From Undaria pinnatifida (Eukaryota; Sar; Phaeophyceae; Laminariales; Alariaceae), in contig JABAKD010000009.1 in assembly GCA_012845835.1 (NCBI GenBank), positions 4,254,904-4,318,903 of the forward strand: a DNA stretch of 64,000 nucleotides, read 5' to 3'. Shown here piece by piece: positions 15,418 to 58,010 of this stretch (its first letter is position 1; every line of letters begins with the position of its first letter). A model generated the notes under the pieces. The model was not told where the DNA came from. It saw nothing but the letters and a program-made list of their open reading frames with translations, and did not search any database. The translations under genes were made by a program, and so were the position numbers.

Positions 15418-17577
15418 CTATGTAATACATAATGAAAAGTGGTAAAATCGCATTATTATGACATCGCATGCCCAGCTCGCCTGCTGTATTTGTAAGATGT
15501 ATCTCTGTCTTAGAATTGGCGACCTCAGATCATGGGCGTGAAATGGTATATTTGATACAATATTGATTTGAAAAGGAAGCACAGGCAGATATGTTAAATT
15601 GCGGTAAACCACATTGCCAACCCATTACGTAGGGTATTTCGTGCATACCGTCCGCATGATCGCCTCCAAACCTATGCTAAGCGAAGTATGACTAACGAGG
15701 TAACGTAATTGAGCGCGTGTACACCAAGCGTTCCTAACGAGGTAACGTAACTTAGCGCGTGTACACAAAGCGTTCCTGTCGAAACACTGACGATTCGCAT
15801 TTCTCCCGCTCGTGCTCAATGGCGGTGACATTGCATGACCACATCACCTCGCATGTTGTATTTGGCAATATGTATATCTTTCTTATAATAAGCGACATCG
15901 GAAATTAACGGTAACTACATGATGGCGGTGACAGTGCATGACCACATCACCTCGCCTGCTGTATTTAACAATATACGTCTCTCTTTCTTATAATTCGCGA
16001 TATCAAAAAATATTTGAGAAAATATGAGTTTCGACAAAATATTCGATCTCAAAGCCGTGAAGTGTATTTTCATTTTTAATTTAAAAACGGTAACTACAAA
16101 TATTCTATCTTTTGATCCATGTACAATAACAATTATGCAGATTTAACACGTTGTTTACTACACCTAAACACTGGGTTGCATACTGCATGTAACATCAAAC
16201 CTTCTAGAATCGTAAGCATTACCAGGCAGATGATATAAATGGATGTCTTCTTGCTACAACCGTTAGATTTGTCCTCTTAAGGATATATAGTTTTTGCGCA
16301 CATACCGAAATGTCCCGCCCCCCCTCCCCGTCCCCCGATCCCTCTTGTTCAAACATCCCTCCCTCCCCCCCCTCCCCCCCACCCTCTCCCGATCCCTCCC
16401 CCATCCCCCCCCGCCATATTTTTTTTCTGCCCAGTTTGTTTAAAAGCCCCCCTTAAAATCGATATCGGCCAGAGTAAGAAACACCTCTACGCAGTTGATA
16501 TCACGTCATTCTCTTTCTAACCATCCACGACGAATTTTTCATTCTTTACCGCCCCCCCCCTCCAACGCCCCTTTCTTTCCCACCACCCGCACGATCGCCC
16601 AGACCTAGCACCACGTGTATAACAAGCCCCTACCTCTCTTTGATCTCACAGCCGGAGTGTATTACAATATTATAAGTGACCTAAACCTCCTAAGGCCCCC
16701 CCTCCTTCCCTCATTTTTTTTTTTTTCGGTCTCCCTTGCTCAAACGCCCCACCTAATATCGAAATCCGCAAGAGTAATAAACACTTAACGCGCTGGATAT
16801 CACCTTACTATCTTTCTAGAGCCACACATACCACGGTCCCCCCCCCTCCCGCCCCCCGCCCTCCCCCGCCCCGAACGTCCCCTCCTTCCCCACCACCCGC
16901 AATATCGCGAAGACCTAGCATGACACGTATAGCAAATCCCCTACATCTATGCCACCTAAAGCCCTTTCCACCTCCCCTCCCCCCCCCCCTCCCCCACGAC
17001 CCACTAGGGTTAGGGTTACCTACTGATTGTACGACTTACAAGATATACATGATAAGCTGGTGCATTATTTACAAAACCGTCACATACATGTATCCCCTTA
17101 AGGAATGTATAGTTTTCTCGCACGGATAAAGCTGCCCCACCCGCCCCCTCGCCCCCCCAATAATAGTTTCCACGCACAAATTGAGTTGCCCCCCCTCTTT
17201 TCTTGATTCCCATCTTGAACCCCGCTCGCTTTTGATCAAAACCAGGCCCCCACGTCCTCCAAAACTCGGCCCTCCCCTCACCGGCTATTCGACGTACAGG
17301 ATTCACTCGATAAACAGATGCATTTTCTTCTACAGCTTTCAGATTTTTGTCCGCCTCAGAAACGGGTTTTATAGTTTCCGCGCACAGACTGACTAAAATC
17401 ACCCTGTTGACCCTGATAGCTACACTGTAGTTGCAAGGGGAGTTGCCGACCTATATCCTAGATTAGGACACACAACCCGTAACACGCGCGATCGGAGTAT
17501 CACACACAGCTTGCAAAGATGAGTTTCGACGAAGTATGCGATCTCACAGCGCTGGAGTGTATTTTCATTTTTTTAAA
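15418..17577 (-). repeat. G-tract dispersed repeat, copy 1 (minus)
   Basis: The reverse complement of the element seen most fully at 31868-34790. The head block (containing GAGATCGAA and CATCTTTGCAAGCTG) is at the right end and the tail block (ACACGCGCTCAA, CTTCGCTTAGCATAGG when read on the minus strand) at the left. C-rich islands stand where the plus-strand copies have G tracts. It abuts a plus-oriented head at about 17585, giving a head-to-head inverted junction. No coding frame is shared between copies. Confidence 0.8.
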
Positions 17578-17584
17578 TATTAAA

Positions 17585-17880
17585 AAAACAATGATACACT
17601 TTCCAGCTGTGAAATCGAAGACTTCGTTGAAGCCCATATTTGCAAGTTGTGTGTGATAGTCCCCTCGCGCGTGTTTCTCCGTGTGTATCTTCACGACGGA
17701 CATAGGTCAGCCACTCCCCTGAGATACACAGTTTAGATTGCACCAGGGTCGGCAAGGCGATGTCAATCAAACTGTGCGCAGCACTAAAGGCCGTCTTTGA
17801 AGGGAGAAAAATCTCACAGCTTTGGTATGCACCAGTTTATTTTGTTCATCTTGTAGTCGTATGCTCGGTGAGAGGAGGGG
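17585..17880 (+). repeat. G-tract dispersed repeat, copy 2 (head fragment)
   Basis: Carries the head block in plus orientation (ACACTTTCCAGCTGTGA, then CGAAGACTTCGTTGAA) more diverged than other copies, ending in GGTGAGAGGAGGGGAT. It is a 5' fragment facing away from copy 1. Confidence 0.7.
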
Positions 17881-18035
17881 ATCGCGTATAATAGGGGAGA
17901 CAGGTCAGGTAAATGAATAGGACGTTGCTGCACGCGCATTAATAGTGGGAGGTGGTTGGGCCGGCGGGCCAGGGTGTGGGGATAATTGAATTCTGAATAC
18001 AATATTAGTGAGCTGGAGGTCCTGCATGGGTGGTT

Positions 18036-18190
18036 CAAAAAACAAAACGAACACATCACCTGTCTCGTAGTGCTTTAAATTCAGCTGATTTTTTCTTTTG
18101 GGTTGAAGGGGCTCAAAAAACAAAACGAACACATCACCTGTCTCGTAGTGCTTTAAATTCAGCCGATTTTTTCTTTTTGGTTGAAGGGAG
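18036..18190. repeat. 78-bp direct tandem duplication
   Basis: Two units starting CAAAAAACAAAACGAACACA at 18036 and 18114, nearly identical. No function visible. Confidence 0.9.
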
Positions 18191-18399
18191 GGGGGGGGAG
18201 GAGGGAAGGAAGGGAGGTTACTGGGGGGCGGGGGTTACGGAGGTGGGTGGATGCAAAGTATTCTACCTGCATGCTGAATGCAGATGCCCACTAGTGTAAA
18301 GAAGATCTGTAAGGTGGTTGGGAGCAAACTGTACGTCGAGCTGTTTTCACGTTAATGGTGTACATATTAGTGGTTTTTGATTCCGTATACGATGTATCT

Positions 18400-20195
18400 A
18401 TCATAAAAAATTATTACACACTCCAGCTGTGAGATCCAATATGTTGTCGAAACTCATCTTTGCAAGCTGCGTGTGATACTCCTATCGCGCGTATTACGGG
18501 TTGTGTGCCCTCATTAAAGGTATATGTCGGCGACTGCCCTAGCAACTACTGTGTAGCTATCAGGGTCAACAGGGTGATGTTAGGCAGTCTGTGCGCGGAA
18601 ATCACAAAATCCGTTTCTGAGAGGGACAACATCTGCCAGATGTGGAAGGAAATGCATTCATTTGTCAAGTGAATCCTGTACGTCGAATAACCGGTGAGGG
18701 GAGGCCTGGAGGTGGGGGCCTGATTTTGATTTATAGGGGGCGGGGGGGACGGACGGGGGGGGAGGACAGGTGTGGCAGCTCAAAATGTAGGTAGAAACTA
18801 TATATCCTTTTTGTGGGGAAGGGCGGGGGAAAGGTGAGGGGCGGGGGTGGGGGACTTCAGGTCGCATAGATGTAGGGGTTTGCTATGCGCGTGGTGCTAG
18901 GTCTAGGCGATGGTGCGGGTGGTGGGGAATGAGAGGGCGTTGGGGGCGGGGGTGTGTGGGGGAATTGCAGCAGCGGTATGGACGGCTCAAAATATATATT
19001 GAGGTGATATCAAGGGCGTGAAAGTGTTTATTACCTTGGCGGATTTTGATATTAGGTGGGGAGTTTGAGCAATGGAGAGCGGGGCGGAAAGGGAAGAGGG
19101 GGGAGGGTTTTCAAGAGGTTTAGGTCACATATAATTTTAAAATACACTCCAGCTATGAGATCAAGCATTTAGCCGAAACTCATCTTGGCAACATTGTGTG
19201 TGATACTCCGATCGCGCGTATTAATCATATATCTAGAGGCTTGCTATACGCGCGGTGCTGGGTCTAGGCGATTCTGCGGGGTATGGGGAAGGAGGGGGCG
19301 TTGGAGGGGGAGGGGGATGAATGAAAGCTACGTCATGGGTGGCTAGAAAGATCATGACGTGATATCAATTTCGAAGAAGTGTTTGCTACTCTGGCCAATT
19401 TCGATTGTAAGTGGGACGAGTGAACGAACTGGAGGGGAACGAAGGGGGGGGCGGGGTGGTTGAGGAGGGCGGAGATGAGTTGGAGCTACGGCATGGGTGG
19501 CTATGAGGATAATGAGATGATGTCAGCTGGCTGGTAGTGTTCACCACTCTGGTAGGTTTGATTTTTGGTGAGGCGTTTGAACAGGAGGGGTCGGGGGAGG
19601 GGGGGGGGGGGGGGATTTCAATATGTGCGCGAAAACTATAAACCCGTAAATAGGAATAATCTGACGATGGTAGCAAGATGACATCCCTCTACATCACCCG
19701 ACTGGTAATGATTATTTTTCTAAAAGGTTTGATGTTAGATGTAGTATGCAACCCAGTTTTAAGGTGTACTAAACAACGTGTTAAAAGCTTCATAATTTGT
19801 TTTTGTACAATCATGTAGCTACGATTATTCTCTGACATCTCTATTTTAAAGAAAGAGATACGTATTGCCAAATACAACAGCCGAGTTGATGTGGTCATGC
19901 AATGTCACCGCCATCGAGCACGCGAGTGAGAAATGCCAATCGTTAGTGTTTTGAAAGGAACGCTTAGTGTACCCGCGCTCTATTACGTGATATGTGTTAA
20001 AATACGCTTCAGCTGTGAGATCGAAGATTGCGTACAAACTCATTTTTGCAAGCTGTGTGTGATCCTGCGATCTCGCGTGTGTGTCCCCACTGTGAATATT
20101 GGTCGGCGACCCCCCTTAGACCTAGCTTGTATCAGGGTCACTAGGTTTACGTTAGTCGATATGTACACCAATACTGTATAACCTGTTTTTTAAGG
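18400..20195 (+). repeat. G-tract dispersed repeat, copy 3, followed by a further head
   Basis: Head block from about 18410, G-rich islands near 18735-18760, 19290-19315, 19445-19460 and 19590-19612, each between conserved blocks. A tail runs to about 19984. A second head block (TTCAGCTGTGAGATCGAAG) starts at about 19990, so two units lie head to tail. Internal sub-units repeat the phrase CTGTGAGATC (or CTATGAGATC), G tract, CATGG.TGGCT, TGATATCA. Confidence 0.8.
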
Positions 20196-20429
20196 GGAAA
20201 GAATCGGACGGCCGCAGGATGCACGAGTTTAATACGAATTACCCTGTAGTTGTATACCGTGAAGACCGAGGGGCTAGCCGTTTGATTCTTGACTTAGCTG
20301 TTCGACTATTGACTACCAATCCCTTTTGACGCGGCGCCCCGTTCCTACTTCCAATCGCGACACCTCCAAAATTTGGGCGCTCACTGCGTGTTTTCATACA
20401 CAGTTTGCTCATCTTTGGCCAACATCTAC

Positions 20430-21840: not shown

Positions 21841-21876
21841 GGGGACGGGGGATAGGTCGCATAAGTTAGTATGAGC

Positions 21877-22499: not shown

Positions 22500-22760
22500 T
22501 TAGAGGGGGGGGGGGGGGGGGGGGGTTAATAGCAGCTTGAAGATACGTGATGTAAATAAATTAGCGCGATTGGACTGATGATTCGAAATGTAGGTAGATT
22601 ACATCACTTGTCCGGTAGTTTTGGTAACTCTGGCGGATTTGGAGTTTCATGGCGCGAAGTGAGAGGGAGACGGAGGGGGGGGGTGGGGGTGCTAGTTGGA
22701 TGGAGGGGGGTACATGCGGGAAAACGATTCTAGTGTACAGGCAAAATGCTAATGCCAAAA
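22500..22760 (+). repeat. G-tract dispersed repeat fragment
   Basis: A run of 21 G (22505-22525) is followed by blocks matching the internal unit of the G-tract repeat (CTCTGGCGGATTT.GAGTTT, then a G-rich island near 22673-22690). Confidence 0.6.
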
Positions 22761-24500
22761 ATTAGTAAAAGAGATAACGACGTATGTCTTCGAAATAGTT
22801 GTTTTTCGAATACATGTTGTACGAGAATAAGCGCTGGTGGGTGTAGTCGTGCCAATCATACTCGTCGTCAGGGACATACCTAGGACATGCCACGGTGTGC
22901 TGGCGCACGTGTTTCGCATATTCCACTTAGCGCATCACATTCAGAGTGCATGTAAGACTTGCCGTACCCCCGTTTCTTTGTGCCGAACCGTTTTCCACTG
23001 CAGAAGCATACACTCGTGAGGCGTCACTTTTGCTGTAGGCATGAAAAAGTTTCAGCGGTAATCGAATTTGTTTTGTTGCCATTTCGCCGTAGGGGATGTT
23101 ATGAGGGTCCATTTCGCCGCGGTCGTTATTATTATTGTGCGGTTTTCAATCGGCAAAAAATTGTTTAGGCTGTATGCCGACGCCCAGGCGATTTTTTATC
23201 CTTGAAATTCATGACGTACCGTCTTCGTCGCACGTGGTAGCATGTGTAAGGCCTCATTTTTCCCATACATATGCTCGACACTCGCCACGCTGACTCGAAC
23301 CTCCAACCAGTCAGCATCAGTTCGGGTGTAGCACAGGCTTAAACTTGGAGTATTGCAGGTTGATGCTTCGGGGGTGAAACGGACCCGATGCTGCTGCTGT
23401 GAAACGCCGCACAGCGTGTCAGTCTGGCTCTTGTTCTGAATGTGACGGCGGGATTTTGTCTCGATGTGCTCTAGTACAACTGTGCTTCTCTCACAAGTGT
23501 CTAGCGAATGAAGGCGATTGGGTGTTTGAGCGATGCTCGCCCTGAGCTAGGTGTTCGTCGACGACCAGTCGACCAAGGATTACTTGTTTTATTTCTCGTT
23601 ATCATTTTTTGTGTTTCCGTCGTAATTTATTAACCCTCCACCAACTCGTTTTAGCATTTCTGTACAATAGAAATTGCCTAACGTCCGCCTACAACCAGAG
23701 GGTAAACGGAGCGTGTAAGACGAATAGATTAGCGCAATATCTAGGCATACAATGTCCGAACTTTGGAGCCGGCTCGTAGCTCGAGCCTGCACCACTGGCC
23801 GGAAGGTTAGGTACAACCCTGCTCATGGGCCTATCACGTTAACCACCGAGTTATATCCAGTAATAAGGAACGACCAGCAGGTACCTGCTGTATGATAATA
23901 GCGGCCATGTACATTCCCGCCCGTCTCTAAAGATTCGCGAGAAACACAACGACGGAAAGTTAAACTCCTCAGGGAACGGTATCAAACCATTATTGTGGAA
24001 CAATGTCCCATGATACGACCACAGCGGTACAGCACTATCCAAAATATCACCCCGGGCAACCAATGACAACTTGGATCTGACCGACTAGCTTCGATACACA
24101 TAGGTTTCCGCACGTTAAGCGATCATAAAGTCCAACCATTCGTGGTGAGGTTCGTCATGATCGAACAGCTATCGCGCTTAATGGCCGTGAAGAAAATATT
24201 TTTCTCGGCCGCATCGTCATCTATACCTCTTCTAGCAAACCACGCACCACGCGTCGCACGTTGCATTGCGCATGAAACCTGCCGAAACCCAGGCCACACA
24301 CGGAATGTGTACTCCAGTGCAACAGCAAATCGAAAATGGAGGGATCACATCTGGACATGTCCGGTGCAGTCACAGCCTCGGCGATGAACCGCCAGCTGTG
24401 GCTGCTTCAGGAACTATCGGCACGCCAGGCAGAAAATCTAAGTCACATGTATATTTCTAACGTGCCACACGTCTACAGGTATTGTATCGTATGTTCTACA
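22760..24500. other. No gene established
   Basis: Mostly unassigned sequence. At 24290-24460 the plus strand reads well in one phase (AMNRQLWLLQELSARQAENL, helix-like) but it is short and unsupported. It ends just left of the OTU-element copy. Confidence 0.35.
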
Positions 24501-24562
24501 AGATTCCCCTTCGGGAGGTGGACACGTGCCTCCCGGGGGCGACGCAAGTCGAATGACTACAA

Positions 24563-25185
24563 CTAACTGATGATGATGAAGTATTTATGCAGAAGGTGTA
24601 TATCGGAGGGATGCGTAGTGGAAAGAATGTGGATAATATAATAAGATATCACCAGCTGGATATCACAGACATTTGGAGGAGGAGGGTTGGGATATTGCTG
24701 AGGCTCGGTGTGATAAGTTATTCGAAAGTCCACTCCGTATAACTGCGTGGCAGCAACTAATTCTACGTTTGTAGCATATGCGTAAGGCTGTGACATGAAG
24801 TGGAGATACTCTTCAACACTCGAATATGTGGTAGGTTGAGATCCAGCGACTTCCACAAGTTCTTGATTTCCTCCAGCTAAGATGCTGTCGTGGAAAGTGT
24901 TGAAACCTGATCCTGGGATAACGGTGTACAAATTGGTTGTGATGTGGGCAATAATATGTGCACGGACGATGTGATGTTAAGCTGGGTTGTTGTGCACACG
25001 ACGCGAGATACATCTTAATAAACATGCACCATCACCAATCTCGGGAATAATAATGGACCATTGACCAGAATTGTTATTGTTGCCGCTGTTGTTGTCTTGA
25101 TCATTTTCGCTGTCTGATGGGGTTTGTACTGCTGCTGTCGCTGCTGTTAGAGGAATCATTGGTGTAGATTTGTTGTGTGTTTTCT
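24563..25185 (-). pseudogene. OTU-like cysteine protease frame, copy A1
   Basis: Reads PEIGDGACLLRCISRRVHNN (OTU catalytic Asp/Cys motif D-G-x-C), then a TAA at about 24977 where copy B has Leu, then GSGFNTFHDSILAG, YSSVEEYLHFMSQ and ATNVELVAATQLYGVDFRI, which follows the OTU pattern of a Tyr..EYL..M block and a final EL.A.A.L....I strand. The catalytic His region near YHTEPQ is uncertain. One substitution separates this frame from the open one. Confidence 0.65.
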
Positions 25186-25514
25186 GTGTCCAGTATTTTT
25201 CCCCGCGCGCTTATACCGATGTTTGTTGCCGATATGGTCTGTTGTGTCCACATCGTTACTTTTGCTTGAGTTGTGTTGCTACTTTATATCTCTTTATACA
25301 GGTTTCGCTACTGCTGTATGGTAACCACCGTGTCAATTGTGAGGGAGAACTCACAGTAAACTTAGAGTCTATGGACTACGTGCTGCTTGCTGGTGGTGCT
25401 GCTGACGGAACTTTGCAAGACAAACGGAACTTTTTCGGGCACGTTGGCGTTGTTTGTTCCGTTCAGAAAAATATATTGTCTACACCGACAAATGATTCTT
25501 TATTATCTACATGA

Positions 25515-25900
25515 CCTTGATTTGCTCCAGCTAAGATGCTGTCGTGGAAAGTGTTGAAACCTGATCCTGGGATAACGGTGTACAAATTGGTTGTGATGTG
25601 GGCAATAATATGTGCAAGGACGATGTGATGTAAAGCTGGGTTGTTGTGCACACGACGCGAGATACATCTTAATAAACATGCACCATCACCAATCTCGGGA
25701 ATAATGGACCATTGACCAGAATTGTTATTGTTGCCGCTGTTGTTGTCTTGATCATTTTCGCTGTCTGATGGGTTTGTACTGCTGTCGCTGCTGTTAGAGG
25801 AATCATTGGTGTCAATTTGTTGTTTGTTTTCTGTGTCCAGTATTTTTCCCCGCGTGCTTATACCGATGTTCGTTGCCGATATGGTCTGTTGTGTGCACAT
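25515..25900 (-). pseudogene. OTU-like cysteine protease frame, copy A2 (C-terminal truncated)
   Basis: Open from Met at 25900: a Ser/Asn/Asp-rich leader, then PEIGDGACLLRC and HIIAHITTNLYTVIPG, up to SILAGANQ, where the internal duplication junction replaces the rest of the domain with unrelated residues. It retains the Asp-Gly-Ala-Cys motif but lacks the second half. Confidence 0.6.
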
Positions 25901-26278
25901 CGTTATTTTTGCTTGGGTTGTATTGCTACTTTATATCTCTTTATACAGGTTTCGCTACTGCTGTATGGTAACCACCGTGTCAATTGTGAGGGAGAACTCA
26001 CAGTAAATGACATAGTTCACGTCGTTGCAGCGGGTACATATACACCGCGCCTGCGGGAAAATTCTCTCGCAAATACATTTTGATGCCACCCCGATGTACG
26101 TGCGAGGACTAAAGTTCCACCGTGTGTGTAGTAGACGTATTTAAGCCTGACGATATGCCTATATTTTAGGCTCTAAACCAAATTAAGCCATATCGTGTTT
26201 TACATGTCTACAAAATAGGTCTATTTTATCCACCTAACGACCACGGCAGACCACGGTGAGATGATGTGGATTTTCCCA

Positions 26279-26318
26279 AAATATGCACTTGGGCACATTT
26301 TGGCCCAAGTGCATATTT
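26279..26318. repeat. Perfect 16-bp inverted repeat with 8-nt loop
   Basis: AAATATGCACTTGGGC (26279-26294), loop ACATTTTG, then the exact reverse complement (26303-26318). In copy B the left arm has gained TTGG at about 41231. It lies in the non-coding right part of the OTU element and could be a terminator-like or processing hairpin; function unknown. Confidence 0.85.
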
Positions 26319-27134
26319 GAAGCAATTTTCCGAGTATTTTCCAGCAAACAACAGCATTTCAGACGACAAAAGCTCGAGGAAACATCAGACGGATGCCTAC
26401 ATTTCGAGGGTGGAAATTGAACCGGGTTGAGGGCCAGTCCTGCTGTGCTGCTGTACTGACTGCCACACTGAGGCACACCGAAGGCGGCAGACGCCTGCGA
26501 GGTATCCTACATATGAAGCGAGTATGGAGTACGAAGCACTCAATAATCTTGCCAGGCACCAGTTATTTGTTTTGGCCGTTTGTTCAAGCTCGCACAGCAT
26601 GGGCAGGGGAGGGTCTTTCTCGAAGTTTCCACCCACTCATGTGCTGACTCATGACCTAAATACTTGTCTTGCCATCTGCGTCTGGAGTAGTGCAGAAATA
26701 TCATAGTCTATTTTCAAGTAGTTTGATCTTTCCTCGGCTTTTCTTTTTATGCGTACTGACTGAAAGAGACCACTATTTCCAGTTTTAGACATAATATGGT
26801 GTTTTTTTTATGCGTTTAAGGTCGAAATATCGAATGGCCTAGTAGCTCTTCCAGTTGGAAGTACTTAAGACCTAACCTCGAGGCTTAAATACGTCTAGTG
26901 TGTGGTTGCCCGGGGACAGAAGTGTCTCATACCCCGCAAAATAGAGCCAGTCTCGGCGGCTTTCCGCGGCCATACCTCGCGCCACGGACGTCCCATGAGC
27001 CCGGCACACGGCTGATAATATACCGACGGGTAGTCTGATCGCATTGCAGAAGAAAGCACACAAAAAAACTCTGCGCCGGCGGAGAAAAAGGGACGGACTA
27101 GGCAAAAAAATCGAAATGGTACATATGCATATTC

Positions 27135-30539: not shown

Positions 30540-31865
30540 AACTCGAGGTAGCTGGTTTTGAAAACAAATCCCGAATAAAACGTGAACACCTCGAGAGCCC
30601 ATTTCAATGGTAGCGCCGGTCAAGCCATTCGAGAATTCCGACATGACCAGTGACCAGCGCAACTCCAGACAAAACATATGAGCTGCGCAGTCTCAACTCC
30701 AGGCCGCAGAGATACAACGCAGCGCTCGGGTATCTTGCGATTGAGTTCCGGAGGCGAAGCTCATGCAACCTACAGTATTGGACAGCCACGTTAATGGACA
30801 ATATTCACATCAACGTTGGCAGGGCGGGCGTTATCGTGTTTTGACTGAGGTACACAAAGAGAGACAAGTACATTATTAAGATATATATATTGGTGGAGCC
30901 GAAAGAAGGAGCCGGAGGAACCGACGCAGCCGATTCAGATAGCGCGGTTGCGGCCACACCCGCCGATCGAGGACGCTGGCGGGGATAACCAGGTAGAACA
31001 GTCTGAGAGGTAGATGGAAGTATTCGTCAAGATGTGAGGTTGTCGTTAACGAGTTGATGAAGAACTTAGACGCTGATGAAGAGATTCTCGCGCTGATGAA
31101 GAGAGGAGCTGGACATGCGACATCGTGAACCAAGACCAGCTGCAGCATCATCAGCAGCAGCCGGCGGCGTCAGCACAGCGCCTGCAGTAACCATCAGCCC
31201 CCCTCCCCCCCCGGCGTCCTGCCCGCTGCCGCAGTCGTCTAATCAACGGGCGAACGACGACAGATGCCTGGTAGTGGGTAGTAGAAATTGTGGTGGGTGT
31301 GGAAATAATGATGTCGAAGGATTAGTCGCAAGATGTTTTCTTCCCCGGTCTGCGTGATGGAGTGACTATGGAGCGAGGAGATTTGAGCGGCAGTGCTTCA
31401 GATGGTGTTGTGTGGGAGCGAGCAGAGATAGGTACTGTGTGGTCGTGTGGCAGCGTCTTGGGCTGGGCTTGTTAGCCGGCTGGTCGACGTCTTTCTTGCC
31501 CAGGGAGGGAGCGCGTTTTGACAAAAATATCAAAATCATGTATTCAAGGCAGAGAGTTACTATCACGAGGCACGATTTTAATGATAGTTTACCGAACGGT
31601 TTTGCGTTGAATATGCCCAAAGAGCTTATGTTATATTATACTCCCTGCATGACCCATACAAATACAATATATGGTGAGGCATATGGTAGTATATGGTAGT
31701 TGATAAATGAGGTACCAGGTGTAAAAAAAAAATATGATCCGAAAAGTGCACGACTAGAGTGTTTGCGAGAAGCGTTCTTCGGAAAAAATGGATTCCTTTC
31801 GCAAAAACATGTGAATACCCCTCCCATCATGATTTTGTTGACTTTGAGTTGGAATTATTGTAAAA
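30540..31865. other. No gene recognised
   Basis: Several short frames without domain. An Ala/Pro-rich stretch at 31115-31357 reflects GC-rich triplets (CAGCAGC, CCCCCC). Confidence 0.4.
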
Positions 31866-31867
31866 AT

Positions 31868-32158
31868 TAAAATACACTCTAGCTGTGAGATCGAAGATTT
31901 CGTCGAAACTCATCTTTGCAAGCTGTGTGTGATACTCCGATCGCGCGCATTACGAGTTGTGTGTCCTCATTAAGGATATAGGTCGGCGACTCCCCTTACA
32001 GCTACAGTGTAGCTATCAGGGTCAACAGGATGATTTTAGTCAGTCTGTGCGCGGAAACTATAAAACCCGTTTCTGAGGGGGACAAAATCTGACAGCTGTG
32101 AAGGGAAAAAAAGTGGGGGGCCCGGTTTTGATCAAAAGCGAGCGGGTTTGGAGGGGGG

Positions 32159-32190
<32 letters not shown>

Positions 32191-32793
32191 AGGGGCAATT
32201 TGTGCATGTAAGCTATAAATCCTTTCGAGGGGATAAATCTGACGGTTTTGGCACCAGTATATTATTGGGGGTGGGGGGGGGGGGGGGAGGGGGGTTGGGG
32301 CGGGGGGGGGGGGGGGGCAGCTCGATATGTGTCTGGAAACTATACATTATTTTGAGGGGATAAATGTGACATTTTCGGAAATAATACATCAGTTTATCAT
32401 GTATATCCTGGGGTAAGTCGTACAATCAGTGAGTAAAGAGAGGGTGGAGTGTTCGAGGGGGTGGGGTTGGGATGGGTTGGGGGGGGAAGAAGGGGGCGTT
32501 CGAGGCGGGGGGGGGGGGGGGGGGGGGGACACAGCGGCATGGATGGCTCTCGAAAGATATCCTGTGCGTGAAGTGTTTATTTATGTGGCGGATTCCGATA
32601 TTTGGTGGGGCGTTTGAGTAAGGGAGAGCAAGAGGGGGGGGGGGGGGGGGGGGGAAGATTATTGAGGGGGTTTAGGTGACGAATAATATTCAAATACACT
32701 TCGGCTGTGAGATCAAAGATATGTATCAGCTTGTTATTACGCGTGGTGCTAGGTCCAGGCGATCGTGCAGGTGGTCGGGAAAGAGGGGGCGTT

Positions 32794-32824
<31 letters not shown>

Positions 32825-34790
32825 AACACAGTGGCATGGATGGCTCTCGAAAGATAATGAGGTGATATCCTGTACGTGAAGTGTTTATTAATGTGGCGGA
32901 TTTTGATATTTGGTGGGGCGTTTGAGCAAGGGAGAGCAAGAGGGGGGGGGGGGGGAAATTTTAGGAGGTTTAGGTCACAAATAATATTCAATTACACTTC
33001 GGCTGTGAGATCAAAGATATGTAGCAGCTTGTTATACGCGTGGTGCTAGGTCTAGGCGATCGTGTAGGTGGTCGGAAAAAGAGGGGGCGTTGGAGGGGGG
33101 GGGGGGGGGGGGGGGAATATAATTGAAAACTACGTCATGGATGGTCAGAAAGATAATGACGTGATATCAACTGCGTATAGGTGTTTATTACTCAGGCCGA
33201 TTTTGATTGTGAGTGGGGCGTTTGGACAGACTAGGCGGAAGGGGGGGGGGGGGGGGAATCGGGGACGGAGGGGCGGGGGGGGGGGAGGGGGTTGGGGTTT
33301 GTTGTGAAAAAGAGGTCAGTAAAGGGGGGAGGGGAGGGGGGGGGGGGGGGGGGGGGGGCGGCGGGCGGAACATTTCAATATGTGCGCGGAAACTATAAAT
33401 TCTCAAAGGGGACAACCTGACGATTGAAGCAATAAGACATCCCTTTATATCATCTGGTTTGTAATTTTTACTATTCTAGAAGGTTTGATGTTAGATGCAG
33501 CATGCAACCCAGTGTTTACGTGTAGTAAATAACGTGTTAAATCTTCTTAATTTGTTGTTGTATGATACATCGATCGAAAGCTAGAATATTTTATAGAATA
33601 TTTGTAGGGTACCATTATTTTCTGATATCGCTAATTATAAGAAAGATATACGTATTGTCAGATGCAACAGGCGAGGTGATGTGGTCATGTACTGTTTTGT
33701 CACCCTATCATACAGTCCCCATTATTATCGGACATCGCTAATTATGCCGCAAGAGATACGTATTGCCAAATACAGCATGCGAAGGAGATGTATGTGGTCA
33801 TGTGCTGTCTCCGTCATTGAGCATTAGAGGGAGGGATGCGAGTCGTCAGTTTTAAAGGAACGCTTGGTATACATGTGTTCCATACGTTACCTAATTAGTC
33901 AACTTGGTATACACGCGCTCAAGTCACGTTACCTCGTTAGTAATACTTCGCTTGGCATAGGTGGGGAGGGCGATCATGCAGACGGTATGTACGAAATACC
34001 CTAAGTAAATGGGTTGGTAAGGTTGTTTACCTCAATTTTAACACATCTGCCTGTGCTTCCTTTTCCAAATTATTTTTGTCTCAAATAAATGTACGATTTC
34101 ACGCCCATGATTTTTGTCGACGTGGGGCTCTGCGGTCGTCAATTTTAAGTCAGAGATACGTCCCACAAATACATCAGCGATGGTGGGTATGTGATGTCAT
34201 GTGATGTCATCACTATTGATCGCGAGGGTGATTTCTACTTCGTGAGGTAAATGGTACTGTGTTTCGTAGAGGTCGTCTCAGGAGGGTATGCGATGGGTCG
34301 GCAGTGTATCACGTCTGCTTGTGCTTCCCTTTTCAACTTATTATTATAAAATTGACTTATTATTGTCTCACAATGTGCGATTTCAACGTCCATGATTTTT
34401 ACCGTGCCGCTGTGGGCTCTATGAGGTCGCCAATTCTAAGACAGAGATACATCTTACAAATACAGCAGTTGAGGTGGGCATGCAACGTCATATATATGCG
34501 ACGTCACTACTATTGAAGGCGAGGGTGACTTCACTTCGTCAGGCCTATGCTACTGCGTTTCGTAAAGGTTGTCTCACGTGGACGTGCGATGTCACCATAT
34601 TAAACGCCGAGGGTGACTTTACTTCGTTAGGCATATTCTACTGCGTTTGGAATATGAGAGGTTGTCAGGCAATCATGTAAGCGGATGGAGGCAACGAAAT
34701 ACCCTGCGTAATAGGTTGGTCGTGTGGTTTACCGCAGTGTTAACATCCCTGTCTGTACTTACTTTCCACATTATTATAGACTATATATAG
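31868..34790 (+). repeat. G-tract dispersed repeat, copy 4 (fullest)
   Basis: Order: head block (31868-32110, TAGCTGTGAGATCGAAG to CTGACAGCTGTGAAGG); G-tract islands at about 32150-32190, 32270-32315 and 32500-32530; two internal tandem units of about 297 bp starting with CATGGATGGCTCTCGAAAG (32536 and 32834) plus a diverged third at 33137; a tail (33360-33960) with TGTGGTCATG blocks; and terminal sub-repeats with CTTCC.TTTTC.AA (34060, 34325 and a weaker one at 34757). Longest G run 29. No conserved frame; glycine- or proline-rich frames here are artefacts. Confidence 0.85.
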
Positions 34791-35394
34791 TGTACACTTA
34801 TACGTCCTGTTTTTCCCCACTGTCGTCGAAGATGTTGTAGTCCTGTAGATGTCGCGTCATGTCTGGTGCTCTTGTTAGTGTGTGTTCATGAAAACATGCC
34901 CTAACATGTAGTAGATGATCGCTCAGTGGTGCTTTCCTTTACATCAAGCCAGGTAGTATATGCCAACGCAACCGCTTGCTTGAAAAATGACAAAGAAATT
35001 CCTCACACACTGACACAGAGAAGACGCAGCCCGAAGATTGTTCAGTATACCGACGGTCAGGAACAGGTTATCGAACAGCGCACTTGATTTTTACTACCGC
35101 TCCTCACTCCACCTAAGACACACGGGCATGCGTTGGACACAGTTCGCTGATGCCCAAAACCAATCAAGGAGGTGATGTGGTGGGCGAATGCTATAATGAT
35201 TTGCGCTGCTTCGAACCCTGCCTCTCGTTCTGTTTGTTCTTGCGTTCTTGATGAACTGTCATTTGGCAACGAGCAGTGTGATCATTTTTAGGTTGTGTGA
35301 AGACTTATGTGGACTATGTGATGTTTCAGTCGTAGGGACCTCATTGGAACCAGGGTATATGGGTTCACCTTTGATGGTGTTCATAGGACGTATA
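34790..35394. other. No gene recognised
   Basis: Nothing identifiable. The adjoining GT-rich minisatellite starts gradually at the right. Confidence 0.4.
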
Positions 35395-35770
35395 TATGGT
35401 TCTAGTGTATCGCATGTCCGCGTGGTTTTTGTTTATGGGTTGATATTCTAGACTTGGTTATCGTATTGTTTCAAAGTGGTGCTTTCCGCGTTTTTGATGT
35501 TACACGTATATGTTTTGGTTTATGTTCTAGACTTTGTATCGTGTTGTTTCGGAGCGGTATTTTCGAATACATGTCATTTTGTAACCACGTAGTTTTTGCT
35601 ACCGTGTACGTTTTGGTTGATGTTCTAGGTTTCGTTATCGTATTGTATCAGGGTGGTGTTTTCGAAACGTATTATTTGTCTTGTGGTTTTGCAACACGTG
35701 GTTTTGTTGATGTTCTAGAGTCATTATGTATTGTATCGAATCGGTTTTCGAACATATATTGGTGTACATG
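35395..35770 (+). repeat. Degenerate minisatellite, unit about 80-95 bp
   Basis: Four units with the phrase GTTCTAG followed by GTATTGT.TC and GTGGT.TTTTCGAA, at about 35445, 35523, 35619 and 35711. It ends at a G tract (about 35773-35793). Confidence 0.75.
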
Positions 35771-35805
35771 GTTGGGGGGGGGGGGGGGGGGGGAAGGGGG
35801 GTGTT

Positions 35806-35940: not shown

Positions 35941-36038
35941 GAGGGACGTTTGGAATTTCAACGTTCCCCTCGCGGCTTTGTCAAGTATGGTCAAATGCAT
36001 ATTTATCCTGAAGATAGACATGCAGTAACCAGCCTTGA

Positions 36039-37267: not shown

Positions 37268-38415
37268 CTAAAAACCATGTAACGTACAAAGACGTACCCA
37301 CTCCTCACTCAGCAGTCTATCATGCCCGGGTGCTTGACCTTCCCTTTCGATACATTTCCAAACTCCTTCAGTGACCAACCACCAATACTTCTCACGTACA
37401 ACCGGGTCATGCACTCTTTTAATAGTCGGCTTTATTGGTGAGTTTTTGAAAAATGTTTGGCGGAAATTGTGGAGTTTGTTCCTCAAACGTTCCTTGGTAT
37501 AACCATGTCTAATCATGTCCGTCATCAACTTAGCAGCTGCTACTTGGAAGAAATGGATTTCCGAGCACCTAATTGCAAATCGACAAAGTTGGCAATAGAG
37601 GGTCGCATACAAACACTTTTTTGATAATCGTGTTTCAATGTGGGGGTATCTACGGTACTGCTTCAGTGTCTCCATGTGGTCCCGCTTATCATACATTCGA
37701 ATTTGCGATACTCCAGCAGTACTTTGAAGAATTTCCATATCCAGGAAATGCACTGTTTGCCCTCTTTGTTCCTTGGTGATAGATACAGGGTTCGCAACCT
37801 GCTCACCCTCGTCATCCAGGATGTGTTCTGGGTACATTCCACCATACACCCCTCCCTCCCCTCCTTCCCGCTTGATAATTTGTTCAAACGTAGGGCCTTT
37901 CCTACTTGGTAAGCCTGGTGCTACCGTAAGTATGTCATCTATGAATCTCTTAGTGTTACTACCGTACTGTTCAATAAACTCTAAAGGGTAAAGAGGTTCA
38001 ATGTTGTTTCTCGTATCGAGCAAATATCTATTTATCATAGTTTTTAGGAAATTGAGTTCATGCATGAACGCAAAATCGTTCGCTAAATCGGGTGCGGGTG
38101 CAGTGCCCATGAATATGCCCGATGATTGCTTATATATCGCTCCTCCAAATTGTACAAAACCTTCGTCTAATACGAAGTTAATCCATTCACACAGTTTAGC
38201 TTGACCAACATTAAATTCCCTTTTGTTGTTGGTTGTTCCATTAGCATTTACAGGAGGGTTGAGAGACCAGTGTATTTTGTTGATCTTCGGTTCCTTTTCA
38301 TTATTTTTGAACCCATACTTAATGTACATCGATTTGGAACCGTCTTTTGCTTCTTGGTATGTGAATACCAAGTCCAGTAACTCGCCCATGATACGTTTAA
38401 GACATGAGTTGGAAT
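37268..38415 (-). pseudogene. Penelope-like reverse transcriptase, 5' truncated
   Basis: The open frame extends from 38506, but recognisable protein starts at about 38415 (CLKRIMGELLDLVF). Counting from the first Met: YKQSSGIFMGTAPAPDLAN (about residues 125-143) is the motif B type GxxMGTxxAPxxAN; RFIDDI (187-192) is motif C with both catalytic Asp; HFLDMEI (about 253-259) is the downstream FLD motif; a basic thumb-like region follows (YDKRDHMETL, RYPHIETRLSK). This pattern fits Penelope-like elements best. Motif A and everything before it are missing, and no GIY-YIG endonuclease is seen after it. The stop at 37268 gives a plausible natural end. Confidence 0.7.
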
Positions 38416-38619
38416 TATGAGATATATTGCAGGCGACGCGTCCAAAATTGAGGATGGAGAAGGGATGTGTTGGCAACGAAACAAGAAACAAGAAGTAAAG
38501 AACCACGAAAACCTAAAGAAAGCAAAAAACAGCGTGACAGGTATGTGTAGCAACGGCAGCCAAGCAACGGGGGCGACGACAAAGTTGGCCACAGTGCCAC
38601 CATCGATATTCCACCACAT

Positions 38620-39745: not shown

Positions 39746-39779
39746 ACCGGTGCGGGTAGATTGTATATAGTGAATGATA

Positions 39780-42070
39780 CAAGGTTCCCCTTCGGGAGGT
39801 GGACACGTGCCTCCCGGGGGCGACGCAAGTCGAATGACTACAACTGATGATGAAGTATTTATGCAGAAGGTGTATATCGGAGGGATGCGTAGTGGAAAGA
39901 ATGTGGATAATATAAGATATCACAGACATTTGGAGGAGGAGGGTTGGGATATTGCTGAGGCTCGGTGTGATAAGTTATTCGAAAGTCCACTCCGTATAAC
40001 TGCGTGGCAGCAATTAATTCTACGTTTGTAGCATATATATGCGTAAGGCTGTGACATGAAGTGGAGATACTCTTCGACACTCGAATATGTAGTAGGTTGA
40101 GATCCAGCGACTTCCACAAGTTCTTGATTTGCTCCAGCTAAGATGCTGTCGTGGAAAGTGTTGAAACCTGATCCTGGGATAACGGTGTACAAATTGGTTG
40201 TGATGTGGGCAATAATATGTGCACGGACGATGTGATGTAAAGCTGGGTTGTTGTGCACACGACGCGAGATACATCTTAATAAACATGCACCATCACCAAT
40301 CTCGGGAATATTGTCTTGATCATTTTCGCTGTCTGATGGGTTTGTACTGCTGTCGCTGCTGTTAGAGGAATCATTGGTGTCAATTTGTTGTTTGTTTTCT
40401 GTGTCCAGTATTTTTCCCCGCGTGCTTATACCGATGTTTGTTGCCGATATGGTCTGTTGTGTGCACATCGTTACTTCTTTTGCTTGAGTTGTGTTGCTAC
40501 TTTATATCTCTTTATACAGGTTTCGCTACTGCTGTATGGTATCCACCGTGTCAATTGTGAGGGAGAACCCACAGTAAACTTAGAGTCTATGGACTACGTG
40601 CTGCTTGCTGGTGGTGCTCTATTGTAAAACCGCTGTGTATGTTCTTTTGATGAGAGTAAACGTCTTGTGTATTTATTCTCCTCGGTCCATCCAGAAAAAA
40701 ATCCCGTTCTCAATAAAATTTGATTTTTTATGATCTATATATTGTTGCCGCTCTCTGCGGTTGCTTGCTGCTGCTGTGATCGTAGACAGTTCATACCGAT
40801 GTTTGTTGCCGATATGGTCTGTTGTGTGCACATCGTTACTTTTGCTTGGGTTGTGTTGCTACTTTATATCTCTTTATACAGGTTTCGCTACTGCTGTATG
40901 GTAACCACCGTGTCAATTGTGAGGGAGAACTCACAGTAATGACATAGTTCACGTCGTTGCAGCGGGTACATATACACCGCGCCCGCGTCTAGCAGTGCAG
41001 GAAAATTCTCTCGCAAATACATTTTGATGCCACCCCGATGTACGTGCGAGGACTAAAGTTCCACCGTGTGTGTAGTAGACGTATTTAAGCCTGACGATAT
41101 GCCTATATTTTAGGCTCTAAACCAAATTAAGCCCTATCGTGTCTTAAATGTCTACAAAATAGGTCTATTTTATCGACCTAACGACCACGGCAGACCACGG
41201 TGAGATGTGGATTTTCCCAAAATATGCACTTGGTTGGGCACATTTTGGCCCAAGTGCATATTTGAAGCAATTTTCCGAGTATTTTCCAGCAAACAACAGC
41301 ATTTCAGACGACAAAAGCTCGAGGAAACATCAGACGGATGCCTACATTTCGAGGGTGGAAATTGAACCGGGTTGAGGGCCAGTCCTGCTGTGCTGCTGTA
41401 CTGACTGCCACACTGAGGCACACCGAAGGCGGCAGACGCCTGCGAGGTATCCTACATATGAAGCGAGTATGGAGTACGAAGCACTCAATGTTTTTGCCAG
41501 GCACCAGTTATTTGTTTTGGCCGTTTGTTCAAGCTCGCACAGCATGGGCAGGGGAGGGTCTTTCTCGAAGTTTCCACCCACTCATGTGCTGACTCATGAC
41601 ATAAATCCTCGTCTTGCCATCTGCGTCTGGAGTAGTGCAGAAATATCATAGTCTATTTTCAAGTAGTTTGATCTTTCCTCGGCTTTTCTTTTTATGCGTA
41701 CTGAAAGAGACCACTATTTCGAGTTTTAGACATATGGTGTTTTTTTTTTGCGTTTAAGGTCGAAATATCGAATGGCCTAGCTCTTCCACTTGGAAGTACT
41801 TAAGACCTAACCTCGAGGCTTAAATACGTCTAGTGTGTGGTTGCCCGGGGACAGAAGTGTTTCATACCCCGCAAAATAGAGCCAGTCTCGGTGGCTTTCC
41901 GCGGCCATAGCTCGCGCCACGGACGTCCCATGAGCCCGGCACACGGCTGATAATATACCGACGGGTAGTCTGATCGCATTGCAGAAGAAAGCACACAAAA
42001 AAACTCTGCGCCGGCGGAGAAAAAGGGACGGACTAGGCAAAAAAATCAAAATGGTACATATGCATATTCA
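39780..42070 (-). mobile_element. OTU-protease element, copy B
   Basis: About 2.29 kb, aligned with copy A (24501-27134) with high identity apart from indels. It has one OTU frame and two copies of the 150-bp block (40428-40580, 40796-40939). The 340-bp stretch between them differs from copy A. See copy A for boundaries and the uncertain class. Confidence 0.75.
39920..40468 (-). CDS. OTU-like cysteine protease, transposon-associated
   Basis: 182 codons from Met at 40468. A low-complexity Ser/Asn/Asp leader (residues 1-52) precedes the OTU core: PEIGDGACLLRC with D-G-A-C at residues 59-62 (predicted catalytic Asp and Cys), then a long helix (NNPALHHIVRAHIIAHI), FNTFHDSILAG and SSVEEYLHFMSQ. 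After AYIC the frame diverges from copy A1 because of an added ATAT at about 40030, so the final strand with the expected His is read out of phase. OTU enzymes are ubiquitin-directed cysteine proteases. OTU domains are known in some mobile elements (for example Dualen/RandI LINEs and some Helitrons). Activity is unlikely without the C-terminal strand. Confidence 0.6.
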   Translation of the reverse strand: MCTQQTISATNIGISTRGKILDTENKQQIDTNDSSNSSDSSTNPSDSENDQDNIPEIGDGACLLRCISRRVHNNPALHHIVRAHIIAHITTNLYTVIPGSGFNTFHDSILAGANQELVEVAGSQPTTYSSVEEYLHFMSQPYAYICYKRRINCCHAVIRSGLSNNLSHRASAISQPSSSKCL

Positions 42071-45480: not shown

Positions 45481-46071
45481 GGTGTAAACCAGCGATAACA
45501 GGTAGGTCATCCCTACGGAAGTAGATGAAAAGGCGACGTGAGTTCGAAGTCGTACTACTAGCAACTGCCTAGCGGTACGAAATCCTACAAGAACTATTTC
45601 GAAACACCGACACTTTAGTACGAAGCCAAAGAGCGACATCGTCGCGAACTATACGTGCTGGTCAGGTTGTAAAGCTGACATATACCTGACTAGCCTAACT
45701 AGTGAACAGTAATGAATTGGGCCGTAATACGCGTGCCCTAAAGACCAGTCAATCAACGCACGGGTCCAATTCAGCTTTTCTCCTGAATCCCAAACGTAAA
45801 TCAAGTAATTTAACATGTCATTAATGAAATAGTTTGCTGACTTGAAAAAAAATAACTTTTATACCACATTTTAGAGGAAATACAGCTAGACTTCTCAAAA
45901 TCAGGTATATGACGTATTTTCAAAAATTCGCAGCCACTGCATGTCCATTGCACAACGGGGGCAGGCCCTCTAAGCGTCGTGAACTTATCTTGTGTTTCCC
46001 TCAAACCCTGCCCGTCGTTTCTGAAACATCGGAAATATATTTATCCAGTAGACTAGTCTATAAATATTTTC
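45481..46071. other. No gene recognised
   Basis: Nothing identifiable beyond short frames. Confidence 0.4.
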
Positions 46072-46235
46072 AAAATTAAAATACACTCCAACTGTGAGAT
46101 CGAATATTTTGTCGAAACTCATCTTTGCAAGCTGTGTGTGATACTCCGATTGCGCGTATTACGAGTTGTGTGTCTCACTAAGGATATAGGTCGGCGACTC
46201 CGCTTGCAACTACAGTGTAGCTATCAGGGTCATAT
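46072..46235 (+). repeat. G-tract dispersed repeat, copy 6 (head only)
   Basis: AAAATACACTCCAACTGTGA through CTATCAGGGTCA, close to the head of copy 4, ending abruptly before any G tract. Confidence 0.8.
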
Positions 46236-50945: not shown

Positions 50946-51341
50946 TTTGCATCCTGTCGACTTCGAACCTCCATTGCCACGGGGACAGCAGTGCAGTCTC
51001 TTCATTAATGCCAAGTCCTCTTTTGTTTCGCCTAGAGGCGACGCAGGTTCTCAATAATGCTATTTTTGGTATTTTTATTTGATAGACGCCAACCTTTACT
51101 TGACGGCGCATTTTACATAATTTGTTTCGCCTATCCTTGCCTTCTGTGTTGTATAATATTACGTTTTTTTCTCGTGTCAAAGCATGACTTTCATAATCCC
51201 ATGTTCGTATTTAACTCTTGGCATTACTTTAAAGTTCAATAGATGCCAAATTGGACAGCTACACCTTAAGTTGTCCAAGTGCTGCCCTGCCCTACCCGAA
51301 GCATTCGCCGGCGCCCATGCGGAGCCCTTGTATACTATAAA

Positions 51342-51985
51342 AATTAAGATACACTCCAGCTGTGAGATCGAATATTATGTTCAAACTCATATTTGCAAGC
51401 TGTGTGTGATACCCCGATCGCGCGTGTTACGGGTTGTGTGCTCTCGCTAAGGATATAGGTCGGCGACCCCCCTTGCAACTAACGTGTAGCTATCAGGGTC
51501 AACAGGGTAATGTTAGGCAGTCTGTGCGCGTAAACTATAAAACCCGTTTCCGAGGGGGACGGAATCTGACAGCTGTGGAAGGAAATGCATCACTTTATCA
51601 ACTGAATGCTTTAAGTCGAATATCCGGTGAAGGGTGGGCAGGGTATTTATGGCCGTGGCGGCCTGATTTTGATCGAAAGAGGGGCGGGAGGGGGGGAGGG
51701 GGTGGAGGGGACGGGGGGGGCAGGTCAATTTGTGCGTGGAAACTATAAATCCTTCTTGTGGGGGAGGGGGGGTGGGTGTGGCGGGGGGGGGGGGGGGGGG
51801 TGGGGGGGAGGGCTTTAAGTCGGACAGATGTAGGGGTTTGCTATACGCGTGTTGCTAGGTCTAGGCGATGGTGCGGGTGGTGAGGAAGGAGGGGACGTTG
51901 GGGGCGGGGGGGGGTTGGAATTGCAGCAGCGGCATGGAAGGCTCTAAAACATATACCGTGATATAAACCCTCACATGCCAATGAA
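51342..51985 (+). repeat. G-tract dispersed repeat, copy 7
   Basis: Head block, G islands near 51680-51720 and 51762-51810, then TAGGGGTTTGCTATACGCG and GCAGCAGCGGCATGGA blocks, truncated before the later internal units. Confidence 0.8.
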
Positions 51986-55773: not shown

Positions 55774-56080
55774 GTGAAGATTGTCTGTCACACAACCATG
55801 CGGGTGGGAAGTAATTCTTTCATATTGCCACATTATGTACTTGTGCTCGCGCAAAAGATCCCTCGAGACAATCGTTTTGCTGTGAAGTTTATCTCTCACC
55901 CAGCAGTCCGCATGGGGCATCACCCTTTCTTTCATTATGCCGCATATCATTCTCGTGCACATATGATCGTTTATCTGTGAAGATTATTTCTTGCTCAGCA
56001 GTCCGCATGGGGAACCACTTGTTCATTATGCCACATAATATACATCGTGCGCGTACACGTCGATCTGAAATAATAATCTG
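55774..56080 (+). repeat. Three-unit degenerate tandem repeat, about 100-bp unit
   Basis: GTGAAGATT, CA.CATGCGGGTGG/CAGTCCGCATGGGG and CATTATGCC.CAT recur at about 55776, 55880 and 55977. Glycine/His-type frames on either strand follow from the repeat. Confidence 0.75.
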
Positions 56081-56432
56081 CACCCCACCGCCAAAGCGCG
56101 ATGGGTGCCAGCAAGATTTTATTCAGTTTCTCTGGATGAGCGAAGACTTACACGTGCAATGTTTTTGCGACGCCTTGCGGCAACGTATGAACTCCACTGC
56201 AATAATAGGTAAAGTATGACATCACGACTCACCCAACAGCAGCGTAATATCACGACGCACCAAACATCTGTAACATGGAGCGGATTTTGTGGTCAACTTA
56301 CAGAATACATGAATTTGTCCGCGCCCAACGTCACGTGAATCCATCTTCAGTTGCTACACAAACCACCTGCTGCTGAGCCTTTTATAATTATTTTGACTGC
56401 AACATGTGATCGAATGGCGGAAACATCGCTGA

Positions 56433-56562
56433 CGTTTCAACCAACAGCAATCCAACACGTTTGTCTGCGGGTCCTTGTGTTCAAACACACCATGTACGTT
56501 TTAACCAACAGCAATCCAACGCATTTTTCTGCCGGTCTTTGTGGTAAAACACACTATGCACG
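56433..56562 (+). repeat. 65-bp tandem duplication
   Basis: GTTTCAACCAACAGCAATCC and its near copy start at 56433 and 56498. Confidence 0.85.
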
Positions 56563-56589
56563 ATATATAACCCCTCTTGTTCAAACCAT

Positions 56590-58010
56590 CCACTTAAAAT
56601 CAACAACTAACAGAGTAGTAAACCCCACCAGCCAGCTGATATCATCTTTTCAACCTTTTAGACATCCATGCCGTAGCTCCAACTCATCTCCGCCCTCCTC
56701 GCCCCCCCGCCCGCCCCCCCTTTTGTTCGCCGCCCAGTTCGTTCAAATGCCCCACGAACAAACGAAATCGGCCAGAGTAATAAACACTTCTACGAAATTG
56801 ATATCACGTCATTATCTTTCTAGCCATCCATGGCGTAGCTTTCATATATCCCTCGTCCCCCCCTCCAACGCCCCCTCCTTCCCCACATCCCGCACGATCG
56901 CCTAGACCAAGAACCGCGTGTATAGAAAGCCCTAACATATATGATTAATACGCGCGATTGGATTATCACACACAATGTGGCCAATATGAGGTCCGACTAA
57001 ATCCTTGACCTAATAGCTGCGTTACCCGCCTTACGCCGCTACTCCTCACTGCTGCTGCTGCTACTGCTGCTTCTGTCGAGTGCCAAGTGACATGCCGGCG
57101 TAAATTGTAAGGATCGTTTGAATATTATACTAGTACAAAAACGGTCCTTATGTTTATTTCAGATTGGTGTGCTTCCTACGCATACAGTTCCCTATTTTGC
57201 ACAGAGCACCATGCTATGATCCTGCCGCCCAGCAGCAGCCCAGCCCAATAGCCGGAGTGTAGTTCAACATAACATGCGGCCTAAACCTCTTGACCCCCTC
57301 CCCCACCCCACCCCCCTTGTTTTTCCTCGCTCTCTCATGCTCAAACGCCTCACCTAATATCGAAATCCGCCAGAGTAATACACACTACTACGCCCTGGAT
57401 ATCACCTCATTATCGTTTTCGAGCAGTCCATGCCGCTGCCGCAATTCCCACACACACCCCGCCCGCAACGCCCCCTCCTTCCCCACCACCTGCACCATCG
57501 ACTAGACCTAGCACCACGGGTATAGCAAACCCTAACATCTATGCGAACTAAAGACTCCCCCCCCCGCCTCAACATCCCCCGCCCCCTCCCCCACAAGAAG
57601 GATTTATAGTTTCCACGGACAAATTGAGCTGCCCCACCGGTCAATCCCCCCCTTCCTCTCCTCCCGCGGATCTTTTGACCAAATTCAGGCCCCCACGTCT
57701 TTAAAAACTCCGCACACCCCTCACCGGTTATTCGACATAGAGGATTCACTTGATAAACTGATGCATTTCCTTTCACAGCTGTTTGATTTTGTGCCTCTCA
57801 GAAACGGGTTTCATGGTTTCCGCGCACAGACTGACTGACATCACCCTGTTCACCCTGATAGCTACACTGTTGTTGCAAGGGGAGTCGCCAACCTATATCG
57901 TAAATGAGGACACACAACCCGTGATACGGGCGATCGGAGTATCACACACAGCTTGCAAAGATGAGTTTCGACACAATATTCGATCTCACAGCTGGAGTGT
58001 ATTTTTTTAT
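56590..58010 (-). repeat. G-tract dispersed repeat, copy 8 (minus)
   Basis: Reverse complement of the internal and head blocks of copies 3 and 4; the head ends at about 58004 (CTCACAGCTGGAGTGTATTT). C-rich islands mark the G tracts. Interrupted at 57018-57246 by a separate insertion. Confidence 0.8.
57018..57246. mobile_element. 229-bp insertion with 6-bp flanking repeat
   Basis: Splits the phrase equivalent to CATAGCTGGAGTG in the G-tract repeat. AATAGC occurs at both edges (57012-57017, 57247-57252). It contains CTG triplets and a GGATCGTTT..AAACGGTCC stem. No terminal inverted repeat was found, so its class is unknown. Confidence 0.5.

Follow-up and report, generated by a model that had tools for sequence, protein, structure and literature searches.

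Chlamys-type Penelope-like elements (PLEs), in the account of Craig et al. from 2021, reportedly carry a GIY-YIG endonuclease N-terminal to a telomerase-related reverse transcriptase (RT), with a CxC linker motif. They are also said to insert as 5'-truncated copies with a common 3' end, to form tandem and inverted insertions (pseudo-long terminal repeats, pLTRs), to favour microsatellites and to be without a canonical hammerhead ribozyme. PLEs were first reported from TSAR only in 2025, in a paper that counts three PLE/Chlamys families with 4,782 copies, 27 of them intact, in Ectocarpus (PMC12477816). Papers on Penelope elements describe 5' truncation with tandem second copies (PMC8969392), inverted pLTRs with 8-10-bp duplications and microhomology junctions (PMC3846280) and, for a Penelope-like enzyme in vitro, AT-rich cleavage and extension of both strands (PMC11167929). 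Here we analyse a 64-kb stretch of the genome of the kelp Undaria pinnatifida (assembly GCA_012845835.1, contig JABAKD010000009.1, positions 4,254,904 to 4,318,903; hereafter the window), in which an initial annotation had described a non-coding repeat with G runs at fixed positions. We find that this repeat is no stand-alone non-coding family: it belongs to a coding retroelement lying on the opposite strand, and most of its copies in the window are fragments truncated at the 5' side. "Non-coding" therefore fits the repeated stretch, not the element to which it belongs. With a probability of about 0.88, the repeat represents a long non-coding tail on the 3' side of a Penelope-like retrotransposon whose endonuclease precedes its RT, Chlamys being the most likely type.

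Results

One truncated element across an assembly gap

Self-comparison of the window revealed a dispersed repeat family and bore out the proposal of a single family with ordered blocks, in which unique blocks are separated by G runs. Most copies start with a common block, AAAATACACTCCAGCTGTGAGATC..., and end at differing distances from it. The window holds one gap of 500 N, which lies inside copy A:

31859 to 38405, minus strand: copy A, a 5'-truncated retroelement of 6.5 kb including the 500-N gap, colinear with the C26 genome copy and with a 13-bp duplication at both ends
31846 to 31858, no strand: target-site duplication GAGTTGGAATTAT, 3'-end copy, an exact 13-mer
38406 to 38418, no strand: target-site duplication GAGTTGGAATTAT, copy at the truncated 5' end, an exact 13-mer
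31859 to 32108, minus strand: conserved 3'-terminal block (the "head"), drawn from genome matches and an alignment of 31 sequences
32109 to 33508, minus strand: G-tract zone of the 3' region, including 298-bp sub-repeats, with G on the plus (antisense) strand
33509 to 36578, minus strand: remaining 3' non-coding region, reaching to the gap and taking in 36278-36578
36579 to 37078, no strand: assembly gap inside copy A, adjoining a C run
37268 to 38404, minus strand: C-terminal piece of an RT-like gene, open in the window, drawn from genome matches and RT motifs seen by eye

The 13-mer GAGTTGGAATTAT occurs just twice in the window, both strands counted, and forms a perfect duplication bounding copy A. 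The C26 genome copy follows two stretches of the window in colinear order: 31862-36535, where gaps fall in the G-tract zone, and 37088-38405. Thus 31868-34790, 36278-36578, the gap and the open reading frame (ORF) 37268-38506 on the minus strand make up one element; the first two, once listed as separate copies, belong to a single copy that runs to 38405 across the gap. At other RT loci, the stretch corresponding to the gap measures about 526-548 bases. The listed 412-residue ORF at 37268-38506 starts in flanking DNA. Since the gene lies on the minus strand, the "head" of the initial annotation is the 3' end of the element and truncation falls on the 5' side. The family thereby shows 5' truncation with a common 3' end, a feature of the Chlamys type.

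An endonuclease domain precedes the RT-like region

We searched the genome (511,146,479 bp in 68 contigs) with the RT-like piece of the window and obtained at least 113 matches, with 101 of 395 candidates scored. In eight of the nine best matches after the window's own, the match starts at residue 34-36 of the window ORF, a few residues from the truncation point at 38405. The matches ranked second to seventh were 97-98% identical and free of stops, suggesting recent movement.

A single contiguous frame of 1,100 residues on C22 has an N-terminal GIY-YIG domain (Pfam, E=6.6e-8, scoring 33.2 bits where the cutoff is 22.6), located at residues 99-188 of the tested N-terminal 243 residues, and the region matching the RT-like piece of the window comes after this endonuclease. 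GIY-YIG was also scored in the C26 piece (1.8e-5), and the C28 copy is truncated inside the GIY-YIG region, where it adjoins TA-rich sequence. After the domain, motifs resembling those of RTs can be read by eye (FDFVAMYTNIP, GTAPAPDLAND, RFIDDIL). A QCICGN motif lies between the endonuclease and the RT-like part in L040 and L039; it is short and can arise by chance. The order would be that of the Chlamys type, endonuclease first, provided that the second part is an RT.

Could the element be a classical long interspersed nuclear element (LINE) with a long 3' untranslated region (UTR), truncated at its 5' side by the same target-primed reverse transcription but carrying an enzyme of another lineage? 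The common 3' end, the variable 5' truncation and the 13-bp duplication are all LINE-like, and the literature names some LINE-like elements whose nucleases are of the GIY-YIG type (cf. PMC1564403), so that the GIY-YIG domain alone does not decide against a LINE. The sole endonuclease domain found was nevertheless GIY-YIG, with neither an AP-type nor a restriction-like one, and the tandem and inverted copies described below follow the Penelope pattern. We therefore regard a LINE as improbable.

Gene and G-tract region form one unit

The 3' non-coding region of the retroelement is about 5.4 kb long. At 10 of the 11 other RT loci, the proximal part of this region (element positions ~3940-4720 from the 3' end) comes after the gene. 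When the predicted 3' ends of four RT loci were examined, the 3' region was present in all four and the family terminus (...TTTTTATAATA) in three. A single genomic unit comprises a GIY-YIG domain, then a long coding region, a 3' region with a G-rich antisense strand and a fixed 3' end. That most examined copies consist of the G-tract region alone would also be expected of two separate neighbours, an RT-bearing element and an unrelated non-coding repeat brought together by nested insertion. Such an arrangement is very improbable, because order and spacing are equal in the window, in C26, at 10 of 11 other RT loci and at the four examined 3' ends, and because a single duplication encloses both parts of copy A.

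Copies across the genome share a 3' terminus

A 248-bp query from the 3' block had at least 42 genome matches, at least 40 of them near full length at 95-100% identity, one being the window's own; 40 of 850 candidates were scored, which makes these counts lower bounds. We examined 20 of the 39 near full-length matches outside the window (L010-L029). The block was found in 20/20, as expected of loci selected for it, and their right ends vary. Young copies terminate in TATTATAAAAATTAAAATACACTC or closely similar forms, which often lie behind (TA)n. Terminus variants among L010-L029 include AAAAATTAAAATACACTC and AAAAAATGAAAATACACTC, some with a doubled GCTAGCTG, which suggests subfamilies.

Conservation of an RNA fold in the 3' block was unsupported: z-scores were -1.67 and -2.15, but the covariation term was +0.76 and a double change was found in 4 of 59 pairs. 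The window had no Rfam match at gathering score, and 31840-34840 gave only one match, at chance level and to another family. A canonical hammerhead ribozyme is accordingly absent from the window by Rfam, as in the Chlamys type. In collections of viruses, phages, plasmids and prokaryotes, the single return was an exact match of 18 bases (L001), beyond which no similarity was seen by eye.

Insertions favour TA-rich DNA and occur in tandem and inverted pairs

Of 15 clean copies, 10 have their truncated junction within ATAT/TATA, compared with 4.3% of background 10-mers. Insertions favour TA-rich DNA, matching the microsatellite bias of the Chlamys type. Tandem and inverted insertions of the Chlamys kind (pseudo-LTRs) are also present: (i) the C26 copy adjoins another copy in tandem and in the same orientation; (ii) in L020 and L029, two of the 20 examined loci, inverted pairs are joined at their truncated ends with the 3' ends outward; and (iii) L018 and L024 hold pairs arranged 3' end to 3' end.

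Outward inverted pairs, together with internal 298-bp sub-repeats, might suggest a satellite, a foldback element or a Helitron with no coding part. We give this little credence, since copies of the family with one fixed end are scattered across many contigs, their junctions lie in TA-rich DNA, copy A has a duplication and the repeat is linked to coding sequence. Long head-to-tail arrays free of insertion junctions, as in a satellite, were not seen; the copies are dispersed, with insertion accompanied by duplication. Foldback elements and Helitrons were rejected as incompatible with one fixed end, as was a DNA transposon with long inverted ends formed by copies F and G of the window; eight open frames between F and G yielded no transposase domain.

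G-tracts occupy conserved slots on one strand

The other copies of the family in the window are as follows:

15435 to 17577, plus strand (coding sense): copy B, 5'-truncated, older
16020 to 16090, plus strand: head-only insertion in copy B; A and D lack it at the corresponding position
17581 to 17824, minus strand: copy C, a diverged 3' block whose 3' end faces that of copy B
18405 to 19988, minus strand: copy D, 5'-truncated
19997 to 20212, minus strand: copy D3, a diverged 3' block behind D
46062 to 46232, minus strand: copy E, 3' block only
51333 to 51968, minus strand: copy F, 5'-truncated
56576 to 58020, plus strand: copy G, 5'-truncated and containing an unrelated stretch

The frames at 17019-17450 and 57405-57797, which lie inside copies, had no Pfam match. 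A further copy proposed at 22500-22760 fell away: its match is weak (45 bits), and a comparison with the whole element at E<=1e-5 did not return it. G runs of 21 and 9 bases lie at 22505-22683, outside recognised copies.

We compared 24 copies, namely 20 genome loci and window copies B, D, F and G. A G run of at least 6 bases follows island anchors at 63/73 sites, versus 28/627 after other anchors, so the runs keep the same slots, as the initial annotation had claimed, and are not at unrelated positions. Tract length does vary between copies, and run length in copy A correlates with the mean run length in the 24 others (Spearman 0.93). The range of 10-29 bases given for every copy was too uniform: copy A reaches 30, the longest run in copy G is 9, and no run reaches 8 in copies E, C and D3. 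The longest runs in the family measure 35 bases. The recurring head phrase was recovered, with 19 matches to CTGTGAGATC at one mismatch or fewer against a chance mean of 3.25, and the suspected sub-repeats of about 290 bp correspond to a 298-bp unit present in 2.1 copies.

The window has 37 G or C runs of at least 8 bases; 25 lie in copies as first drawn, and 25/25 of these are on the G-rich strand of the family (expected 5.6). Twelve G runs of at least 8 in copy A fall within the final 1,650 bases before the 3' end, on the plus (antisense) strand; three more lie at element positions 3021-4720 and none in the gene piece. G-quadruplex (G4)-type motifs, which had been anticipated, are present and biased to one strand, with 12 on the antisense and 2 on the sense strand of copy A, and with 7, 8 and 8 antisense and 0 sense motifs in the last 1.4 kb of three RT-linked copies. 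The G-tracts are almost solely on the strand that becomes first-strand complementary DNA (cDNA), and the examined copies, old as well as young, retain the slots.

A role of G-tracts as hot spots of truncation found no support: truncation points showed no G enrichment (P=0.44) in 15 of the 20 genome loci, L020, L023, L025, L027 and L029 being left out for ends that are inverted, gapped or compound.

Other features of the window

A remnant of a Copia-type retrotransposon occupies 2-3721, with an integrase-associated SH3-like domain at 179-796 and RVT_2 at 2645-3316. A reverse-transcriptase frame at 6430-7500, LINE-like by eye, has a weak RVT_1 match below cutoff (E=0.00019). Short degenerate tandem repeats (GCTTCCGTGGAA and relatives) with a 210-residue frame lie at 10318-11072. 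Another repeat is present in two copies, at 24497-27134 and 39778-42069, whose main parts are 90-96% identical; its frames look OTU-protease-like by eye (GDGACLLRCISRRV), and those tested had no Pfam match.

Discussion

The assignment to Penelope-like elements, which we consider most likely, draws on the GIY-YIG-before-RT order, on 5' truncation and on tandem and inverted copies, the RT part being suggested by motifs seen by eye. Several observations weigh against it. The RT part found no match in Pfam, PDB sequences or NCBIfam and, in PHROGs, just a weak unnamed family (E=0.034). The proximal 3' region is absent from L037, one of the 11 RT loci, and the 3' end of L049 is interrupted. The right junction is not TA-rich in L015, L021 and L022. 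Target duplications, which the initial annotation had proposed to look for at the ends, hold for the 13 bp at copy A and not as a general rule: beyond (TA)n, flank matches in 15 copies were no better than permuted pairs (P=0.43), and duplications at eight in-window copies were no better than shuffles (P=0.50) in a test that used a misplaced far end for copy A, 34814.

What is the mechanism of insertion? A GIY-YIG nuclease may nick TA-rich DNA, where the RNA 3' end (...TATAATATA) would pair at the nick and be copied by reverse transcription. Synthesis would mostly end early and leave 5'-truncated copies dominated by the 3' region, which would explain why the repeat looks non-coding from sequence alone. 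Slippage probably changes the lengths of the G-tracts. Pairs that meet at their truncated ends and point their 3' ends outward would be in keeping with cDNA priming on the two target strands.

The plain account of the tracts is that a few ancestral ones slipped and that internal duplication multiplied them. More tentatively, and in our estimate rather unlikely, the phased G-tracts could be a working part of the retroelement, folding on the growing cDNA to pause it, protect it or bring about its joining. In that case the outward inverted pairs might record cDNAs that were started on both target strands and linked where they are truncated, a reading suggested by the activity of a Penelope-like enzyme on both strands in vitro. 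Were the G-tracts functional, the element would offer a natural setting for testing how G-rich structures act in reverse transcription.

As the tail of a PLE, what was an unnamed non-coding G-tract repeat would become part of an element of recently active appearance in the kelp Undaria, and a layout for which no named family had been known would fall to a named kind of element. The Undaria genome paper classes 36.1% of the genome as "Unknown" repeat (PMC7058681), and 5'-truncated tails could make up part of that fraction. Among the titles and abstract openings listed from the openly licensed literature, we found no description of a PLE in Undaria or Saccharina, nor of G-tracts in the 3' region of a PLE, a weak negative in either case.

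Comparison with known systems

The closest likeness is to Chlamys elements, whose features reportedly include GIY-YIG before the RT part, strong 5' truncation, tandem or inverted copies and microsatellite targets. Brown algae host both, Ectocarpus in the one case and Undaria in the other. A possible difference is the 5.4-kb 3' region with phased G-tracts in the Undaria element. Penelope/Poseidon elements with a C-terminal endonuclease resemble it in their tandem or inverted arrangement and short duplications or microhomology junctions (PMC3846280), and in AT-rich target cleavage with both target strands cut and extended in vitro (PMC11167929); in contrast, their endonuclease is on the opposite side of the RT and their pLTRs are a few hundred bases long (PMC11167929, PMC3846280). 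As to G-tracts, a paper on quadruplex motifs reports Athena PLEs as having no G4 potential of their own, and assigns the motifs of Drosophila telomeric elements to the template strand, including one within the HeT-A 3' UTR (PMC10088271). HeT-A, TART, TAHRE, GilM and GilT share with the Undaria family a bias of quadruplex motifs to one strand, but are telomere-associated (PMC10088271), whereas the Undaria family is dispersed and has G runs of up to 35 bases.

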